Shown: positions 31,918 to 45,186 of the stretch, piece by piece
Numbering within the stretch: the stretch's first letter is position 1
Layout: each line of letters begins with the position of its first letter
DNA from: Paludisphaera soli
GTDB taxonomy: Bacteria; Planctomycetota; Planctomycetia; Isosphaerales; Isosphaeraceae
DNA: 64,000 bases
Assembly: GCF_011064595.1 (NCBI RefSeq)
Contig: NZ_JAALJI010000005.1
Location: 62,001 to 126,000, forward strand
Direction of reading: 5' to 3'
Program-made: the position numbers and the translations under genes
The notes under the pieces: model-generated
The model's input: only the letters and a program-made list of their open reading frames with translations
Database searches by the model: none
Told to the model about the DNA's origin: nothing

Positions 31918-33120
31918 ATGAACGCGACGGCCGAGATGCTGACCGCCCGGACGGGCAAGCCGTCGCGGATCGTGGTGGGGATGATCTCCGGCACCAGCGC
32001 CGACTCGATCGACGCGGCCGTCTGCCGGATCGAAGGCTTCGGCCTCCCCTCCGCCGACGGCCCCGGCGCGCGGGTGGAGCTGATCCACTACGCGGAGACG
32101 CCCTATCCGGAGGCGACCCGCGCCCGCATCCTCGACCTGAAGAACTGGGGCGTCCGCGACGTGGCCGAGATGAACGTGCGGGTCGCCGAGGCCTTCGCCG
32201 ACGCCTGCCTGAAGACCCTCGCCGAGGCCGGCCTGAGGCCCGAGGACGTGGACCTGATCGGCTCGCACGGGCAGACCGTGTACCACCACAGCTCGGTCCC
32301 CGGCGCGCTCGGCGCGACGCTCCAGGTGGGGGACGGCGACGTGCTCGCCGAGCGCACCGGGGCCCTGGTGTTCGCCGACTTCCGCGCCCGCGACGTCGCC
32401 GCCGGCGGCGAGGGGGCGCCGATCTCGCCCTTCGCCGACATCATCCTCTACGCCCCCCGCGACCCGTCCTCGACCCCCGAGCGGCGGGCCGTGCTCAACC
32501 TGGGGGGCATCGCCAACGTCACCGTGCTCGACCCCGACCCGAACAAGGTCTTCGGCTTCGACACCGGCCCGGCCAACACCCTGCTGGACCGCCTGGCCCG
32601 GCGGATCTCCGGCGGGGCCGAGTCCTGCGACCGCGACGGCGCGCTCGCCCGCGCGGGGAGGGTCGACCCGGCGCTGGTCGAGCGACTCCTGGCGGATGAC
32701 GCTTATCTGGGCCGAAAGCCCCCCAAGTCGACCGGCTTCGAGATGTACGGCGACGCCTTCGTCGAGCGTGCGGGGACGCTCCTGGGCCGGTTCGACGCCG
32801 ACCTGATGGCGACCCTGACCGAGTACACCGCGAGGACCGTGGCCGACGCCTTCGCCCGGTTCGTGCCGCCGGTGGTCGAGGTGATCGGGGCCGGCGGCGG
32901 CGTGCGGAACCCCGCCCTGTTCGGCCGCCTCGCCGAGCTGCTCGCCCCCGCCCGGCTCCTCCTGGGGGACGACCGCGGCGTCCCCGGCGACGCCCGCGAG
33001 GCGATGGCCTTCGCCGTCCTGGCCCATGAGGCGCTCCACGGCCTGCCGACCTCGCTCCCCTCCGTCACCGGCGCGCGACGACCGGCGGTGCTCGGGAAGG
33101 TCTGCCTGCCTAGAGCGTGA
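31918..33120 (+). CDS. anmK: Anhydro-N-acetylmuramic acid kinase
   Basis: 400 residues. It cleaves the 1,6-anhydro ring of anhMurNAc and phosphorylates it to MurNAc-6-phosphate, a peptidoglycan recycling step. Motifs: VGMISGTSADSIDAAV (phosphate 1 loop; most family members read SGTSxDGID), IGSHGQTVYHH, FADFRARDVAAGGEGAPI, LNLGGIANVTVL, FDTGPANTLLD, and GAGGGVRNPALF near the end. The start is preceded by GAGGAG. Its product is the substrate of the MurQ enzyme encoded at 42782-43699. Confidence 0.94.
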   Translation: MNATAEMLTARTGKPSRIVVGMISGTSADSIDAAVCRIEGFGLPSADGPGARVELIHYAETPYPEATRARILDLKNWGVRDVAEMNVRVAEAFADACLKTLAEAGLRPEDVDLIGSHGQTVYHHSSVPGALGATLQVGDGDVLAERTGALVFADFRARDVAAGGEGAPISPFADIILYAPRDPSSTPERRAVLNLGGIANVTVLDPDPNKVFGFDTGPANTLLDRLARRISGGAESCDRDGALARAGRVDPALVERLLADDAYLGRKPPKSTGFEMYGDAFVERAGTLLGRFDADLMATLTEYTARTVADAFARFVPPVVEVIGAGGGVRNPALFGRLAELLAPARLLLGDDRGVPGDAREAMAFAVLAHEALHGLPTSLPSVTGARRPAVLGKVCLPRA

Positions 33121-37940: not shown

Positions 37941-37966
37941 CGCCCGACGCGTCACGGCGTCGGGCG
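37941..37966. terminator. Hairpin between convergent genes
   Basis: CGCCCGACGC-gtcacg-GCGTCGGGCG, 10-bp perfect stem overlapping the stop of the minus-strand gene and 41 nt after the stop of the plus-strand gene. Likely shared transcript end; no T-run. Confidence 0.45.
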
Positions 37967-40627
37967 GCCCGTCGTCAGGGCGACCGGGAAGGCGCCCTCG
38001 CCCGCGACCTCCACCTCGCCCGTCGCGACGACCTCCCCCTCGGCGCGGGCCGAGACGGTCCAACGGCCAGGCCAGAGGGAGGGGATCGCGATCCGGTCGA
38101 AGCTCGAATCGGACTCAAACTTCCGACGCACCGAGACGCCCGAAGGATCGACCGCCACCACCTCGTCGGGGACGCGCGTGGGCCGGGCGAAGGCGATCGC
38201 GACCTCGGCCGTCGCGCCGGGGGAGAGCGTCAGCTCGCCCAGGTCGACCACGCCGGCCGGCACCTCCACGTCGTCCACCCGGCGATAGCCCGCGTCCGGG
38301 TCGTGGATGAACAGCGAGTACGTCCCGGGCGTCAGGTAGCGGACGCAGAAGTTGCCGTCGCCGTCGCAGCGCGACCGCCTCGACGGGGCGCCCGCCCCCT
38401 TCGCCAGGGCGGTGACCTCGACGGGACGCCGGAAGCCCTCCTCCGAGGCGTGGACCTTCCCCGTGATGCAGCCGGCGCCCAGCGGGATCCGGACCTCGCC
38501 GCGACCGCCTTCCGGGACGGCCACCTCGGCGTCGAACATCGGGCCGCCGTCCAGGTCGGTCGAGCCCAGCCAGTCGAAGACGCGGAGCCGGTACACGCCG
38601 GGGCCGACGTCGGGCAGCACGATCTTCCGCGCGTCGTCCAACCCCTCCCAGTCGGGCCGAGCGAACGCGAGCGGGGCGTCCGCGAGCGGCGTCAGCTCGA
38701 CCCGGAACATCGGCTCGCGCGGCTCCCGGCCCGCCCCTGCCTCCAGGATCGATTTCGCCATTTCCGTGACGTTGTCGACCTTCCGCGCCGCCCCCAGCCC
38801 CGTGCCCGACTGGTGCTGCGCGTCCGACCCGTCGCCGATCGCGAAGGCCAGCGTGAACTTCCGACCCCCTTCGGGTTCGAAGGCGCCGATCGTCGTCGTC
38901 CTCTCCGCGGCGACCTGAGCCGTCCAGACGTGGGCGTCGATGACGTCGAAGAACTGGAAAGGGAACCCGACCTCGACGAGGCCCGTGGGTACGCCGTCGA
39001 GCTGGAAGCGGCCCTCCTCGTCGGCCAGGAACGAGATCTCGTCCTCCGCCTCGCCCAGGCCCGCGAGCCGGCCGCGCCCGACGTACCCCCGGGCGAAGGC
39101 CCAGGGGCCGCCGCCTTCATCCTGAGGACGCCAGACCCGGCCCTCGATGCGGCCGGTCGCCGCGGGGGTCGCGAGGGGCACGGCCCCCACGTCGAGGCCG
39201 TCGGCCGGCACGTCGAGCGTCAGGGCCGTCTCGGGGGCGCCCCGCCTCGCCAGGACCAGCCGGTAGCGGTCCGGGCGGACGTGCTCGAACCGCAGCCCCC
39301 CCTCGGCGTCGGGGACCGCCTTGCGGGAGGCGAACGACGCAGCGAGCGCTTCGGATGGGTATCTCTCGACCTGCGACCTCTCCCGACGGGGTACGAGCGT
39401 CGCCTCGGTGCGGTTCCGACGGGCCTCGGGCCCCTCGACGCGGGCCGTCACAGTCGCCCCCGCCGACAGCCGGACCTCCAGCGGCCCGCCGCCGCGTCTC
39501 ACGTCCACCAGGCCCTCCCACGCCGCGAAGCCCTCGGCGACGACGCCCACCCAGGCCGGCCCCTCCGCCGGGAGGCCCAGCGTGAAGCGGCCCTCGCGGT
39601 CCCGCACGTCGAGGGGCTCGCAGTCGAATTCCCCGGGGAGCGGGCCCGGCCCGGCGGCCGCCCGGAACGCCTCGACGGCCCGCCCGTCGGGGCCGACGAC
39701 CCGGCCCGTCAGCTTGATCGTCGGCTCCATCACCACGACAAGCGCTTCGGGCCTGTCCATCCGCCGCTGCGCCTCCTCGGCCTCCAACTTCGCCTCGATG
39801 AACCCGTCCATGCGGATCGTCAGTCCGGAGAGCGCGTCGCGGACCTTGACGACGAGCCTGCCGTCCTCGCCCGCGACGGGGCCTTCCTTCCAGATGTCGT
39901 GGACCGCCGCCCCGGCCAGGGGCCGGCCGTCCGTGTCGACGACCGCGATCGCGACCGTCGCGAGACGCTTCATGAAGAAGTCGCGGTTCGGGTCGCCCTT
40001 CGGCCCGTCGGCGAACGCCGGGTCGTCCTCGTAGTCGGGATGCTCCGCGTGGACGCCCCACTCGGAATCGGCCCCGCGAACCTCGTAGCGGCCGTCGTCG
40101 CCGGTCACCACCGCCTTATCCTCGTCGTCGAAGCCGTAGATCATCGGGCCGGAGAACCTCGGCGTGACCTTCGCCCCGGCGATCGGCCGCAGCGTGCGCG
40201 AGTCGCGGACGGTCCCCCGGATGGTCACGCCGCGGAGCATCCGGACCACGACGCGGCGGGGGTCGTCCGACCGCACCAGGAACTCGTCGGGCTGCGATCG
40301 GTCCTCATAGTAGTCGGGGGCCTTCACCTGGAGGTCCAGCCAGCACGCGGGCGGGGCCGGGATCTCGAACGTCCCGGCGGGCGACGCGACGGGCGTCCAA
40401 GCCTCGGCCTTCGGCAGGTCCCCGTCGTCCGCCCGGCGCTGGCGGCCCGGCACCTGGAAGCGGGCCCGGTAGGTGAATTCCGTCACGGGCGCCCCGGTCG
40501 CGCCGTCGACCACGGCCACCGTGAGGGGCCTGAGTTCCGGCTTCGCCGCGGCCTCCTGGAGCGGCGGGACGGCCTCGGCGGCGGAGGCGGCCAGGAACAT
40601 CGCAAACGCGGCGAGGTATTCACGCAT
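37952..40627 (-). CDS. Large secreted protein with carboxypeptidase-regulatory-like repeats
   Basis: 891 residues from the ATG at 40627. Signal peptide (REYLAAFAMFLAASAAEA). Many beta-sandwich modules of the carboxypeptidase-regulatory (transthyretin-like) type: VAVVDGATGAPVTEF, IRGTVRDSRTLRPIAGAKV, IAVVDTDGRPLAGAAVHD, LTGRVVGPDGRAVEAF, RIEGRVWRPQDEG, CITGKVHASEEGF, each followed by D-x-x-G-x-F/Y turns and P-x-G-x-Y/W ends. No peptidase domain, so probably an adhesive or structural envelope protein. Stands alone, divergent from the small membrane protein gene. Confidence 0.82.
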   Translation of the reverse strand: MREYLAAFAMFLAASAAEAVPPLQEAAAKPELRPLTVAVVDGATGAPVTEFTYRARFQVPGRQRRADDGDLPKAEAWTPVASPAGTFEIPAPPACWLDLQVKAPDYYEDRSQPDEFLVRSDDPRRVVVRMLRGVTIRGTVRDSRTLRPIAGAKVTPRFSGPMIYGFDDEDKAVVTGDDGRYEVRGADSEWGVHAEHPDYEDDPAFADGPKGDPNRDFFMKRLATVAIAVVDTDGRPLAGAAVHDIWKEGPVAGEDGRLVVKVRDALSGLTIRMDGFIEAKLEAEEAQRRMDRPEALVVVMEPTIKLTGRVVGPDGRAVEAFRAAAGPGPLPGEFDCEPLDVRDREGRFTLGLPAEGPAWVGVVAEGFAAWEGLVDVRRGGGPLEVRLSAGATVTARVEGPEARRNRTEATLVPRRERSQVERYPSEALAASFASRKAVPDAEGGLRFEHVRPDRYRLVLARRGAPETALTLDVPADGLDVGAVPLATPAATGRIEGRVWRPQDEGGGPWAFARGYVGRGRLAGLGEAEDEISFLADEEGRFQLDGVPTGLVEVGFPFQFFDVIDAHVWTAQVAAERTTTIGAFEPEGGRKFTLAFAIGDGSDAQHQSGTGLGAARKVDNVTEMAKSILEAGAGREPREPMFRVELTPLADAPLAFARPDWEGLDDARKIVLPDVGPGVYRLRVFDWLGSTDLDGGPMFDAEVAVPEGGRGEVRIPLGAGCITGKVHASEEGFRRPVEVTALAKGAGAPSRRSRCDGDGNFCVRYLTPGTYSLFIHDPDAGYRRVDDVEVPAGVVDLGELTLSPGATAEVAIAFARPTRVPDEVVAVDPSGVSVRRKFESDSSFDRIAIPSLWPGRWTVSARAEGEVVATGEVEVAGEGAFPVALTTGRPTP

Positions 40628-40863
40628 CGGCAAGGGCCACTCCCGGCGCGGTCGTCCGAAGGGTGCGCGGCTCCCCATTCTCAGGATAGACGTGAGAATC
40701 TTCGGATACGTTCCCGATGACCCGCAAGCGATTTCCAAGAATCGGGCTTTGGAGGTTGCCCCGGGGGCTGGGGCCGGGCGTAAGATCGGGAGATGCGGGC
40801 GTGCGAGGACGCCCGTCGGATCGGCCGCCGAGAAGCCCGGGCGAAGCGAGGAGGCCCCGCGCC

Positions 40864-41178
40864 ATGAAGCCGCCCGACGCCTCGAATCCCTGGAGTGAGA
40901 TCGGCCGGCGGGCGCTCTCGGCCCTGGCGGTCTATGCGGTCCTGGTCGGCTCACAGGTGGACCGCAAGCCGCCGGGGGTCGGGTACGGGCCGAGGCTCGC
41001 CTCGATCGCCTGGCAGGCCGTCGTGTTCGCCCTGGTCCTGGCGGTCCTGTGCCTGGTCACCCGCGGCCTGCAGCCGGACCTGGCGTCGCAACGGGCCGGA
41101 CAGGACCGGGAGCGAGGGCCCCTCAAGAGGTCCGCACCCTTCCTGACGGGCGACCCGGGAGGCGGGGGCGGGGCCTGA
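40864..41178 (+). CDS. Small membrane protein, unknown function
   Basis: 104 residues from the ATG at 40864. Two predicted transmembrane segments (ALSALAVYAVLVGSQV and AWQAVVFALVLAVLCLVT) with a short loop, then a polar Arg/Gly-rich tail. No recognised domain. It precedes the symporter operon by about 120 nt, with a promoter-like box between, so it need not be part of it. Confidence 0.55.
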   Translation: MKPPDASNPWSEIGRRALSALAVYAVLVGSQVDRKPPGVGYGPRLASIAWQAVVFALVLAVLCLVTRGLQPDLASQRAGQDRERGPLKRSAPFLTGDPGGGGGA

Positions 41179-41221
41179 TCGTCGATCCGAACGTTGGCTG
41201 CACCCGCCCCGGCGGTTGTGA

Positions 41222-41227
41222 TAAGAT
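41222..41227 (+). promoter_or_regulatory. Candidate extended -10 box for the symporter-murQ-kinase operon
   Basis: TGA-TAAGAT about 75 nt upstream of the symporter start; extended -10 form, no -35 seen. Confidence 0.4.
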
Positions 41228-41300
41228 CGAGCCCTCTCCCGGCCGCAAGGCGTCGCAAGCCTTGGTGGACAACTCGATCTAGCAACATCTGGTGGGGCCG

Positions 41301-42761
41301 ATGCATCCGATCGACGTGGGGATTATCGTGGTCTACATCCTCGGGTGCACGGCGCTCGGGGGGTGGATCGGCGGCAAGGGGGACCAGGGGCTCAAGGGGT
41401 ACTTCCTGGGCGAGCGGAACATGCCGGCCTGGGCGGTGATGATCTCGATCGTCGCCACCGAGACCAGCACGGTGACGTTCCTGAGCGTGCCGGGCGAGGC
41501 GTACAAGGGGAACTTCGAGTTCCTCCAGCTGCCGATGGGCTACATCGTCGGCCGGATGATCGTCTCGGCCATGCTCCTGCCGGCGTACTTCAAGGGGCAG
41601 ATCGAGACCGCCTACCAGGTGCTGGGCAACCGCTTCGGCCAGACGACCCGGCGCACGGCGTCGATCCTGTTCCTCGTCACGCGGAACCTGGCCGACGGCC
41701 TGCGGCTGTTCCTAGCGGCCACCGTCCTGGCGTTCGTCACCGGCTGGCCGATCCTCTACGCCATCATCGCGGTCGAGGCCGCCACGATCGTCTACACCTA
41801 CCTCGGCGGCGTGAAGGCCGTCATCTGGGCCGACGTGCTCCAGTTCACGGTCTACATCGTCGGCGCCCTGATCGCCCTCTACATCCTCGTGGGCAAGCTC
41901 CCTGGCGGCTGGAACCAGCTCATCGACACGGCGAAGGCCGGCGACAAGTTCCGGACGTTCGACTTCTCGCTCGACTGGACCAAGCCCTACACCTTCTGGG
42001 CGGGCGTCTTCGGCGGCATGGTGCTGAACACGGCGACCCACGGGGCCGACCAGATGATGGTCCAGCGCTACCTGGCGGCGCGTTCGCAGAAGCAGGCGGC
42101 GGGGGCGTTGATCGCCAGCGGGTTCGTGGTGCTGGCGCAGTTCGCGCTCTTCCTGTTCATCGGCGTCTCGCTGTACGTCTTCTTCGGGCAGTTCCCGCCG
42201 ACGTCGCCGCTGGAGAAGTCGGACCAGGCGTTCTCGCTGTTCATCGTGAATTACCTGCCGATCGGCATCAAGGGGATGGTCGTGGCGGCGATCTTCGCGT
42301 CGGCGATGGGGGTGCTGTCGGGGTCGTTGAACGCCTCGGCGTCGACCCTGATCAACGACCTGTACCGGCCGATCTCGGGCGACGAGAACGAGCGTCGGCT
42401 GATGCGGCTGTCGCGGCTGGCGACGATCGGCTTCGGCGTGGTGCAGGCGTCGGTGGCCTGGTGGGCGACGGGGCTGGAGTCGAGCGTGGTGAGCAACGCG
42501 CTGGCGATCGCCGGGTTCACGACGGGCATCCTGCTGGGCCTCTTCCTGCTGGGGAACCTGACCCGCTACGTCGGCCAGGGGGCCGCGCTGACGGGGATGG
42601 CCGCGGGCGTGGCGGCGGTCTCCTACGCGAAGTTCGGCACGCCGCTGGCCTGGCCCTGGTTCGCCCTGGTTGGCTCGGCGACGACGTTCCTCGTCGGCCT
42701 GGCCGCCGGCCGGATCTTCCCCGTGGCCGTCAAGCCGGTCCCGACCGACGAATTCATCTAA
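41301..42761 (+). CDS. Sodium:solute symporter family transporter
   Basis: 486 residues, about 13 transmembrane segments. SSS-family features: unwound first helix region CTALGGWIGGKGDQGLKGYFLG, ERNMPAWAVMISIVATETST with the Na+-site Ser/Thr pair, YLGGVKAVIWADVLQF, HGADQMMVQRYLA and SASTLINDLYRP. The ATG at 41301 is preferred; a GTG at 41292 in frame is an alternative. It is the first gene of an operon with murQ (21 nt gap) and a sugar kinase. This points to uptake of N-acetylmuramic acid or a related amino sugar; substrate assignment is from context only. Confidence 0.92.
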   Translation: MHPIDVGIIVVYILGCTALGGWIGGKGDQGLKGYFLGERNMPAWAVMISIVATETSTVTFLSVPGEAYKGNFEFLQLPMGYIVGRMIVSAMLLPAYFKGQIETAYQVLGNRFGQTTRRTASILFLVTRNLADGLRLFLAATVLAFVTGWPILYAIIAVEAATIVYTYLGGVKAVIWADVLQFTVYIVGALIALYILVGKLPGGWNQLIDTAKAGDKFRTFDFSLDWTKPYTFWAGVFGGMVLNTATHGADQMMVQRYLAARSQKQAAGALIASGFVVLAQFALFLFIGVSLYVFFGQFPPTSPLEKSDQAFSLFIVNYLPIGIKGMVVAAIFASAMGVLSGSLNASASTLINDLYRPISGDENERRLMRLSRLATIGFGVVQASVAWWATGLESSVVSNALAIAGFTTGILLGLFLLGNLTRYVGQGAALTGMAAGVAAVSYAKFGTPLAWPWFALVGSATTFLVGLAAGRIFPVAVKPVPTDEFI

Positions 42762-42781
42762 CCGACGAGCTGAATCCGACC

Positions 42782-43699
42782 ATGGCGCTGGAAGATCACC
42801 TGCTGACCGAGTCCCGCAACCCGCTGACCACCGGCATCGACGCCGCGGGGGCGCTGGGCATCGTCGAGATCATGAACGACGAGGACGTGAAGGTCGTCGA
42901 GGCCGTGCGGGCCGAGGCGGCGAACGTCGCCAAGGCGGTCGAATGGACCGCCGAGCGGTTCCGCCGCGGCGGCCGGCTGATCTACGTCGGCGCGGGGACC
43001 TCGGGGCGGCTGGGGGTGCTCGACGCCTCCGAATGCCCGCCGACCTTCAGCACCCCGCCCGAGATGGTCGTCGGCCTGATCGCCGGCGGCCAGGCGGCGC
43101 TCACCCGATCGATCGAGGGGGCCGAGGACCACGCCGAGATCGGCGCGGCCGAGATCGCCGACATGGGCGTGACCGACCGCGACATCGTCGTCGGCATCGC
43201 CTCGTCGGGCCGGACCCCCTACGTCCTGGGGGCCGTCCGCGAGGCCCGGAAGCGCGGCGCGGCGACGGTCGGGATCGCCTGCAACCGGCCGAGCCTGCTG
43301 GGCGACGAGGTCGACCTGGACGTGGCCCTCCTGGTCGGCCCCGAGGTGATCTCGGGCTCCACCCGGCTGAAGTCCGGGACGGCCACGAAGATGGTCCTGA
43401 ACATGATCACGACGGGCGCGATGATCCTGATCGGCAAGACGCTGGGCAACCGGATGATCGACTTCACGCCGGTCAACGAGAAGCTGCGGATCCGCGCCCG
43501 GCGGATGCTCCGCGAGCTGGCCGAGGTGGACGACGACCGCGCGGTCGAGCTGCTGGCGGCCTGCGGGGGCCGGCTCAAGACGGCCCTGGTGGCCCAGCTC
43601 GCCGAGGTCGGGCCCGAGGAGGCCGACGCGCTGCTGGCGGCGAACGGCGGCCAGGTGCGTCGGGCGGTGGCGGCGAAGACGGGGGCGAGCCGGCTATGA
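42782..43699 (+). CDS. murQ: N-acetylmuramic acid 6-phosphate etherase
   Basis: 305 residues. It splits the lactyl ether of MurNAc-6-phosphate to GlcNAc-6-phosphate and D-lactate. SIS-domain signature YVGAGTSGRLGVLDASECPP, ESRNPLTTGID at the N-terminus (T-E-x-x-N), GIASSGRTPYVLGA, ISGSTRLKSGTATKMVLNM, GNRMIDFTPVNEKL, and the C-terminal UBA-like helical part (LLAACGGRLKTALV). It overlaps the next gene by four bases (ATGA). Confidence 0.96.
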   Translation: MALEDHLLTESRNPLTTGIDAAGALGIVEIMNDEDVKVVEAVRAEAANVAKAVEWTAERFRRGGRLIYVGAGTSGRLGVLDASECPPTFSTPPEMVVGLIAGGQAALTRSIEGAEDHAEIGAAEIADMGVTDRDIVVGIASSGRTPYVLGAVREARKRGAATVGIACNRPSLLGDEVDLDVALLVGPEVISGSTRLKSGTATKMVLNMITTGAMILIGKTLGNRMIDFTPVNEKLRIRARRMLRELAEVDDDRAVELLAACGGRLKTALVAQLAEVGPEEADALLAANGGQVRRAVAAKTGASRL

Positions 43700-44691
43700 G
43701 CGCGAACGAGGACGAGTCCCAGGACCCCGCGGAATCCGCCGAGACCCTGTTCCTGGGCGTCGACGGCGGCGGGACCTCGACGGTCGCCCTGCTGGGCCTG
43801 GCCGACGGCCGGGTGATCGGCCGGGGCGAGGCCGGGCCGTCGAACGCCAAGGCCGTCGGCACGGCCGCGGCTCGCACGGCGCTGGAGGAGGCGATCGCCG
43901 GCGCCTTCGCCGAGGCCGGCCGCTGGCCCCGCGCCGTGGCCGTCGCCTGCCTGGGCGTCGCCGGGTTCGACCGCCCCGAGGACAAGGCGCTTCTGGGCGA
44001 GTGGTCGGTGGCCGGCAACTGGGCCGACCGCCTGGTGCTGGTCAACGACGGCGACCTCGTCGTCGCCGCCGGCACGCCCGAGGGCTGGGGCGTGGGCCTG
44101 ATCGCCGGCACCGGCTCGATCGCCGTCGCCCGCGCCGCCGACGGCCGGAAGGCCCGCGCCGGCGGCTGGGGCGCCGTCTTCGGCGACGAGGGGAGCGCCT
44201 ACGCCCTGGCCGTCGCCGCCCTCCGCCTGGTCGCCCGCCGCATCGACGGCCGCGACGCGCCCCCCGCCGGGGACGGCTCCGACGCCCTGACCGAGGCGCT
44301 CTGCAAGGCGCTCAAGATCGACGGGCCGGGCAAGATCGTCTCGGCCGTCTACGCCCCCGGCATGGACCGCACCCGCATCGCCGGCCTGACCCCGGCCGTG
44401 ATGGAGGCCGCCGCCCACGACCCGACCCTCGTCGAGCTGCTGGTCCGCCCCGCCGCCCGCGACCTGGGCGAGACCGCCGCCGCCGCCGCCCGCGCCCTGG
44501 GCTGGCACGGCGGCCCGCTCCCCCTCGGCCTGGCCGGCGGGTTCCTGGTCTCCGCCCCCTTGCTCGCGGACGCCCTCCTGGAAGACCTCCGCGCCCGAGG
44601 GTATGAGCCCGTCCCCACCCGCGTCCACGAGCCCGCGCAAGGGGGCCTCAACCTCGCCCGCCGCGCCTTCGCCGGTGAGGCCGTCGGCTGA
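43696..44691 (+). CDS. BadF/BadG-type amino-sugar kinase, probable MurNAc or GlcNAc kinase
   Basis: 331 residues, ASKHA fold. Phosphate 1 motif LFLGVDGGGTSTVALLG, phosphate 2 region LIAGTGSIAVAR, GGWGAVFGDEGSAYALA, LVLVNDGDLVVAAG and GLAGGFLVSAPLL. The group includes eukaryotic-type GlcNAc kinases and the MurNAc kinase MurK. The translationally coupled murQ upstream makes MurNAc the likelier substrate, since MurQ needs MurNAc-6-phosphate. GlcNAc or glucosamine kinase activity cannot be excluded. Confidence 0.88.
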   Translation: MSANEDESQDPAESAETLFLGVDGGGTSTVALLGLADGRVIGRGEAGPSNAKAVGTAAARTALEEAIAGAFAEAGRWPRAVAVACLGVAGFDRPEDKALLGEWSVAGNWADRLVLVNDGDLVVAAGTPEGWGVGLIAGTGSIAVARAADGRKARAGGWGAVFGDEGSAYALAVAALRLVARRIDGRDAPPAGDGSDALTEALCKALKIDGPGKIVSAVYAPGMDRTRIAGLTPAVMEAAAHDPTLVELLVRPAARDLGETAAAAARALGWHGGPLPLGLAGGFLVSAPLLADALLEDLRARGYEPVPTRVHEPAQGGLNLARRAFAGEAVG

Positions 44692-44706: not shown

Positions 44707-45186
44707 TCAGTTGGGCACGAGGTAGCCCAGGTGGTGGGCGCAGTGGATGAGCTGGAGCTTCATCCACTCGTCGCGGTTGAGGTGGCCGAACAGGTGCGAC
44801 GGCTGGAACGGGCCGACGTACTGTTCAAATCGCTCGACGGACCGGCGCAGGGCCTCGATCGCCCGGGCCTCGTCGCCGCCGGGGGGCGGGACGGTCTCCT
44901 TCATCGTCGGGGCGCCGGCCGGCATCTCCCCCTTGGCCAGCACCCGACGCGCGGCGATCGGGCCGATGGTGTGGCGGGCCACGAAGAGGAAGGGCTTCAG
45001 GAAGGTCGGCGGCGACGGGAAGCCGTCCATCGGGAAGTCGATCCACTGGGCCAGGTGGCCGCAGGCCTGCGACAGCTCCCACTCGCCGGCCTTGCGGTAG
45101 CCGAGCTCGTGCAGCGTCTCGGCGTCGCGGACGGCCTCGTCCAGGGTCGCGAATTTCAGGTTCCGGCGCTTCGGGTCGGTCGGCAC
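44707..45186 (-). CDS. DUF1569 protein (DinB-like fold)
   Basis: 159 residues. Four-helix DinB-like family with motifs RNLKFATLDEAVRDAE, LSQACGHLAQWIDFPMDG, GEMPAGAPTMKET, HLFGHLNRDEWMKLQLIHC and the final AHHLGYL. The conserved His residues (HLAQ, HLFGHL, HCAHH) suggest a metal site. Common in Planctomycetes; biochemical role unknown, possibly a thiol-dependent transferase or metal-binding protein. It is convergent with the kinase gene. Confidence 0.88.
   Translation of the reverse strand: MPTDPKRRNLKFATLDEAVRDAETLHELGYRKAGEWELSQACGHLAQWIDFPMDGFPSPPTFLKPFLFVARHTIGPIAARRVLAKGEMPAGAPTMKETVPPPGGDEARAIEALRRSVERFEQYVGPFQPSHLFGHLNRDEWMKLQLIHCAHHLGYLVPN

Follow-up and report, generated by a model that had tools for sequence, protein, structure and literature searches.

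We describe here an operon of three genes in a window of 64,000 nucleotides (nt; the whole stretch of DNA analyzed, C143:62001-126000) from the 7.97 Mb genome of the planctomycete Paludisphaera soli, a member of the family Isosphaeraceae, which includes Singulisphaera acidiphila DSM 18658. The first gene (41301..42761, + strand) codes for an SSS/SLC5-family transporter of 486 residues, a predicted importer of N-acetylmuramic acid (MurNAc), identified through the PF00474 and TIGR00813 models, co-occurrence and alignment. The second, murQ (42782..43699, +), codes for a MurNAc-6-phosphate etherase of 305 residues recognized by TIGR00274 and by its match to the solved MurQ structure 4s12, and the third (43696..44691, +) for a BadF/MurK-type sugar kinase of 331 residues (PF01869 and the solved structure 8zo3), predicted to be a 6-kinase for MurNAc and probably also for N-acetylglucosamine (GlcNAc). 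From comparative genomics, we consider it very probable that this operon specifies the cytoplasmic steps of MurNAc catabolism by a pathway independent of the phosphotransferase system (PTS).

The trio itself, which had been called in a first-pass annotation of this DNA from the letters alone, is well founded. The transporter scores 139 bits against PF00474 (cut-off 22.8) and 228 bits against TIGR00813 (cut-off 184), the kinase 116 bits against PF01869 (cut-off 31.5), and the murQ product, in the NCBIfam scan, 357 bits against TIGR00274, whose equivalog cut-off is 302. The last also matches the MurQ structure 4s12 with an E-value of 6.9e-76 and displays the motifs ASECPPT at position 82 and IEGAED at position 111, which we take to be catalytic; by family assignment, the gene is a MurNAc-6-phosphate etherase in its predicted activity. 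The transporter and murQ genes are separated by 20 nt (42762-42781), one fewer than the 21 given in the first-pass annotation, and murQ overlaps the kinase gene by the ATGA at 43696-43699 that it had noted. The co-directional order symporter-murQ-kinase is retained in all six of the genomes of the genus, and the arrangement is thus not due to chance. In the genome as a whole, murQ has a single match above the cut-off and one weak match below it, and the same is true of the kinase family.

The comparative evidence comes foremost from the co-inheritance of murQ and the transporter, for which we surveyed 45 genomes of the family and 218 of the class. In the family, with symporters counted at E < 1e-60, murQ and the symporter are each present in 36 of the 45 genomes and are both absent from the identical nine; the kinase is found in 39, with three genomes, two of them less than 90% complete, possessing it without murQ. 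In the class, murQ is found in 108 of the 218 genomes. The corresponding symporter search returned 110 genomes, which became 108 upon removal of two with paralogue-level matches only (G339 and G452; best E 2.4e-62 and 6.5e-64; 31-33% identity), weaker second hits in other genomes being dropped as paralogues too. With these counts, both genes occur together in 107 genomes and are jointly missing from 109, leaving one genome that has murQ without the symporter and one that has the symporter without murQ. In 72 of 108 genomes the two are no more than 6 kb apart, mostly in divergent orientation (37) or co-directionally with the symporter first (33); the symporter of G520 is upstream of murQ, its 'down' label in the linkage listing being an artefact of overlap. 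Thus, the link holds in two distinct arrangements and, as the co-occurrence of distant genes indicates, at a distance as well. Planctomycetes were once proposed to have a peptidoglycan-free wall, a proposal which the abstract reporting it goes on to refute (PMC4432640). That murQ and the symporter are kept or missing as a unit in 216 of 218 class genomes implies that many of these organisms eat or recycle peptidoglycan.

The kinase is tied still more closely to murQ. When the neighborhoods of murQ (at most 5.5 kb to either side) were scanned in all 108 class genomes with the gene, a kinase was found downstream and co-directional with it in 106, the exceptions being G471 and G492, where none was found within these limits. 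The two domains are less than 150 nt apart in 100 of the 106 and 305-1224 nt apart in the other six. In 28 of the 108 genomes, namely all 25 murQ-bearing genomes of the family f101 along with G437, G506 and G105, MurQ and the kinase occupy one uninterrupted frame, with 4 to 19 residues separating the two domains. These loci include L127:5333-7339, L188:4490-6430, L187:4490-6397 and L168:5429-7327, in addition to 24 more. Two of the fused proteins showed SIS/GKRP domains together with PF01869 in a Pfam scan, four exceeded the MurQ cut-off in an NCBIfam scan, and the fusion recurs in three of the best 80 named symporter relatives listed. Such fusions are a strong genomic sign that the kinase and MurQ act in sequence; hence, we predict that the fused frames are bifunctional MurNAc kinase/etherases, which make the functional link testable with a single protein. 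We found no description of the planctomycete system or of a MurQ-kinase fusion in the literature searched, although such a search is no proof of absence.

A further association is with the exo-beta-N-acetylmuramidase NamZ (PF07075), which is presumably the product of the Bacillus subtilis ybbC gene. It is present in 107 of the 218 class genomes; among the 108 murQ carriers 100 have it, and among the 110 genomes lacking murQ 7 do. The symporter gene is within 6 kb of a NamZ gene in 51 of 108 genomes, including 21 of the 36 symporters that are not near murQ, so that murQ and/or NamZ are linked to 93 of the 108 symporters. In Singulisphaera acidiphila the gene order is symporter, a 783-residue protein combining PF00144 and NamZ domains (L112:3109-5460), murQ and kinase; PF00144 is presumably the type to which B. 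subtilis AmiE belongs. Paludisphaera soli itself codes for a comparable protein of 804 residues (PF00144, NamZ_N and NamZ_C; L293:4127-6541) on contig C24, away from the operon, and its N-terminus appears signal-like as judged by eye. Open frames of at least 700 residues, long enough to accommodate the PF00144 fusion, contain 88 of the 142 NamZ matches, the domain scan in the class having covered two of them only. Outside the planctomycetes, loci L229 and L291 also have NamZ near the symporter and kinase; in the latter, from a Longimicrobiales metagenome-assembled genome (MAG), the NamZ gene adjoins a GH3-PF00144 fusion (L291:1371-5986), followed by the symporter and the kinase, with no murQ within the stretch.

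A PTS route for MurNAc was considered and rejected on the ground that the genome has no match to PF02378, which we take to be the family of the EIIC part of MurP; the same search was positive in 7 of 14 named controls, and EIIC was the one PTS part that it covered. Among the 218 class genomes, PF02378 exceeds the cut-off in one (G524), and that genome is not a murQ carrier. Together, the lack of an EIIC match, the murQ-symporter co-occurrence, the adjacency or fusion of the kinase and the NamZ linkage lend support to the PTS-independent MurNAc salvage that the first-pass annotation had put forward, and on this comparative evidence MurNAc is the likeliest substrate of the trio.

We accordingly picture the pathway in tentative outline. 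The secreted-looking AmiE-like/NamZ fusion, encoded elsewhere in the genome, would trim muropeptides and free MurNAc in the periplasm, and the SSS-family transporter, as its co-occurrence and gene context suggest, would import the free sugar into the cytoplasm. There, the BadF-type kinase, going by its homology and its fusion to MurQ in relatives, would use ATP to generate MurNAc-6-phosphate, from which MurQ, assigned to its family above the curated cut-off, is expected to strip D-lactate to yield GlcNAc-6-phosphate. AnmK, the anhydro-MurNAc kinase, would feed the same MurNAc-6-phosphate from anhydro-MurNAc. Its gene, correctly placed by the first-pass annotation at 31918 (31918..33120, +), scores 323 bits against PF03702 and 402 bits against NF007148 (cut-off 387), and ends 8.2 kb upstream of the operon, to which it does not belong. 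An anmK gene is present in the fetched stretch around 19 of the 108 class murQ genes, which fits a shared pool of MurNAc-6-phosphate. For the step after GlcNAc-6-phosphate, L296 (C46:30785-31825 of the same genome) has a NagA-like match of 162.8 bits; this being below the curated cut-off of 225.65, it is a candidate rather than a firm assignment.

Among solved structures, the closest relative of the window kinase is 8zo3, a MurNAc/GlcNAc kinase (E 2.8e-35, 125.6 bits, residues 19-295) which we take to be MurK of Clostridium acetobutylicum, followed by NAGK (E 9.7e-21, 77.8 bits); chains of Tannerella MurK were absent from this single-sequence search at E 0.01. A profile of eight planctomycete kinases retrieved 8zo3 with an E-value of 1.4e-71, as against 2.2e-6 for 8ow9, the reported structure of Tannerella MurK (PMC10465942). 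By these sequence comparisons the window kinase sits in the 8zo3 branch and outside that of Tannerella MurK, and it has the GGG, ND, GTGS, GGWG and GDEGS motifs in common with 8zo3. In an alignment of 107 kinases, in which the window sequence appears a second time as L093, the catalytic Asp118 is present in 106 (the remaining one has a gap) and Gly157 in all 107, whereas the residue preceding the catalytic Asp varies, being Asn in 45 (Asn117 in the window), Thr in 16, Pro in 16 and others in the rest. A rule reported for Tannerella MurK holds that the lack of Glu or His at Ser133-Pro134-Leu135 makes room for the lactyl group, P134 corresponding to G145 of NAGK (PMC10465942). At this place, as inferred from that correspondence, the window kinase has Gly156-Gly157-Trp158, and human NAGK also has GGW. 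Since GGW is common to the window kinase, 8zo3 and NAGK, the lactyl-pocket rule cannot separate MurNAc from GlcNAc kinases. The C. acetobutylicum MurK is reported to act on both MurNAc and GlcNAc (PMC4432640, PMC10465942); by analogy, our expectation is a similar dual specificity for the window kinase, between the two sugars of which sequence alone does not discriminate.

This dual activity also offers support to an alternative that we regard as unlikely, wherein the symporter and kinase serve GlcNAc derived from chitin or peptidoglycan, MurQ handles only the MurNAc-6-phosphate made by AnmK in the course of recycling, and the genes share an operon as both routes reach GlcNAc-6-phosphate. It would also account for an Acidobacteriaceae locus (L286), whose fetched stretch has a GH20 gene close to the symporter and kinase and lacks murQ, and for two features of the kinase that weigh against MurNAc as its substrate. 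The sole NCBIfam match of the kinase is to an N-acetylglucosamine kinase (NagK) model, at 81 bits against a cut-off of 370. Its Asn117 also departs from a second rule, by which Asn at the T94 position of Tannerella MurK is linked to other sugar kinases (PMC10465942), but 8zo3 has Asn there too, and this rule therefore does not decide specificity. A GlcNAc system is hard to reconcile with the joint presence of both genes in 107 of the 109 class genomes that have either murQ or the symporter, with the linkage of 51 of the 108 symporters to NamZ, with the fusion of the kinase to MurQ in 28 genomes, with the placement of NamZ between symporter and murQ in Singulisphaera, and with the rarity of kinases without murQ in the family, where two of the three such genomes are incomplete. 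Less probable still, and to our minds very improbable, is that a larger fragment or a modified one, such as GlcNAc-MurNAc, a muropeptide or anhydro-MurNAc, is imported by the transporter in place of free MurNAc, with AnmK as the main kinase for it. The presence of anmK in the window, and around 19 of the 108 murQ genes, speaks for it; however, the NamZ/AmiE-type enzymes, going by their families and by the roles reported for B. subtilis AmiE and NagZ (PMC5061867), would free MurNAc prior to uptake. Moreover, disaccharides are reportedly not phosphorylated by Clostridium MurK (PMC4432640), so that a MurQ-fused kinase of this type would be idle if such fragments were what is imported.

The preferred reading, MurNAc uptake followed by phosphorylation and ether cleavage, has to contend with further observations. 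The Fisher P of 8e-61 for the co-occurrence of murQ and symporter in the 218 genomes ignores phylogeny, and two genomes break the pattern, G448 with murQ and no symporter and G502, an assembly of 1430 contigs, with the reverse. Likewise, eight murQ genomes have no NamZ match, seven NamZ genomes lack murQ, and 15 of the 108 symporters are near neither. The reading also has a restricted reach. In a sample of 392 genomes of the phylum (40 in the class and 352 outside it, as counted from the listings), MurQ is found in 228 and the symporter at E < 1e-60 in 88, many of the latter at paralogue level. Outside the class, MurQ is common (208/352) but a close symporter (E < 1e-90) is rare (10/352), and most MurQ proteins there must therefore use other partners. 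Thus, the co-occurrence across Planctomycetes that the first-pass annotation had raised holds within the class but does not extend to the phylum outside it. Eight of these ten outside genomes with a close symporter have MurQ, seven of them with both genes on one contig and at most 2 kb apart. The pairing of murQ with SSS proteins may extend beyond the close orthologue. At least four outside-class genomes (G270:C2, G278:C12, G319:C99 and G324:C268) have a distant SSS protein of 31-35% identity within 90 nt of murQ.

Among the best 80 symporter relatives listed, murQ is in the fetched stretch of 36; the other 44, many of them clipped by contig ends, lack it there, and in eight of these 44 the symporter and kinase nevertheless occur together. 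Either murQ is elsewhere in such genomes, or the sugar phosphate may meet another fate in part of the group. The eight (L225, L229, L257, L283, L285, L286, L289 and L291) come from Acidobacteriota, Gemmatimonadota and one Deltaproteobacteria MAG. Bacteroidetes are named in no title among the 80 relatives listed.

The description of the transporter as a sodium symporter in the first-pass annotation is sound as to family, while the coupling to sodium is doubtful for this copy. Many invariant residues are common to 17 diverse orthologues of the symporter. In an alignment of 164 copies, in which the window sequence appears a second time as L093 and from which copies at or below 400 bits were excluded, every sequence has Glu54-Thr-Ser, Arg135 and Asp250, and 163 have Arg128; three second SSS proteins of Gemmatimonadota loci differ in having Thr54, Pro247 and Gly250. 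At the Na2 sodium site the consensus is Ser-Thr, found in 128 of the 164. In the window copy and those of the other five genomes of the genus (6/6), it is replaced by Gly337-Val338 (42309-42314 in the window). In the sialic acid transporter SiaT, the Na2 residues on transmembrane helix 8 are Ser342 and Ser343, and Ala at either is reported to abolish transport; however, just 54.2% of PF00474 sequences conserve the Na2 site (PMC5931594), and membership of the SSS family thus does not require its hydroxyls. CbrA is a reported case of an SSS protein without the conserved Na2 residues, and a proton gradient seems to stimulate it (PMC7918813). With the Na2 side chains replaced, sodium coupling is not to be assumed for the window copy, and Gly-Val at this site suggests a change of the coupling ion within the genus. 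An SSS transporter with its sodium site changed inside one genus is of interest in its own right. The substrate site offers another analogy: SiaT Arg135 is reported to bind the carboxylate of sialic acid (PMC5931594), and in the window protein Arg128 and Arg135 lie 3 and 4 residues off its position by a hand count on the alignment. Either could bind the lactyl carboxylate of MurNAc.

Extending these observations, we offer a bolder proposal, which we hold only tentatively and think somewhat more apt to fail than to stand. Having lost the Na2 site, the genus transporter would be proton-driven or a facilitator, with the co-translated kinase pulling MurNAc in through phosphorylation at the expense of ATP, and the f101 fusion would be a bifunctional enzyme converting MurNAc to GlcNAc-6-phosphate, a cytosolic stand-in for the PTS-MurQ combination.

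The kind of pathway proposed here is already known. The murTKQ genes of Tannerella forsythia are reported to code for a MurNAc transporter, the BadF kinase MurK (PF01869) and MurQ, in a setting with no PTS (PMC5790795). The planctomycete operon resembles it in coupling the three functions, in having no EIIC match and in its PF01869 kinase; the transporters are likened by function only. Tf_MurT is placed in the sodium symporter superfamily and, elsewhere in the same paper, in the major facilitator superfamily; growth on MurNAc upon complementation is reported there for Tf_MurT and MurK supplied together (PMC5790795). Thus, the functional set of Tannerella invoked by the first-pass annotation stands with respect to the coupling of the three functions; the kinase, by contrast, is of the 8zo3 branch, with Gly-Gly-Trp at the inferred place of Ser-Pro-Leu. 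The gene order also differs, being murT-murK-murQ there and symporter-murQ-kinase here, and the Na2 site is replaced in the window transporter. With regard to 8zo3, the best solved relative, the kinase shares its motifs over residues 19-295; what sets the planctomycete kinase apart is its position beside or fused to MurQ in 106 of the 108 murQ class genomes, its specificity being predicted.

The second point of comparison is the murQRP-amiE-nagZ-ybbC cluster of B. subtilis, in which MurQ, the secreted AmiE, NagZ and YbbC are reported to serve muropeptide breakdown and MurNAc recovery (PMC5061867). As in the planctomycete set, MurQ is there grouped with AmiE- and NamZ-type enzymes. However, the B. 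subtilis cluster relies on the PTS protein MurP where a transporter and kinase are found here, the AmiE-like and NamZ moieties form one protein here, and no MurR-type regulator was recovered among the neighboring genes put through Pfam and NCBIfam scans. The planctomycete set thus looks like a B. subtilis-like pathway with the PTS swapped for a transporter and kinase. In sum, the transporter-kinase-etherase solution of Tannerella is extended to planctomycetes, whose version departs from it in the kinase branch, the gene order, the fusions and the ion site.

The genes flanking the operon are both on the opposite strand and neither codes for a sugar regulator: a large protein with a carboxypeptidase-regulatory domain (37952-40954, -) and a DUF1569 (DinB-like) protein (44707-45186, -). 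Upstream of the operon is a conserved element, GTTGTGATAAGATCG (41215..41229, +), which resembles an extended -10 promoter box. Its core, TGTGnTAnGAT, aligns across the whole genus (six genomes), although conservation is lacking in most of the flanking sequence, and it is a possible promoter. A TGCA block beside it is also conserved in the genus (both within 41198-41229). For the symporter, the six genomes align on the ATG at 41301 as start codon, which is preceded by a probable ribosome-binding site, GGTGGGG (41291..41297, +). In the alignment of the six, this G-rich block recurs at the same distance from the ATG as one- or two-base variants in the other genomes. The GTG at 41292 falls within this element.

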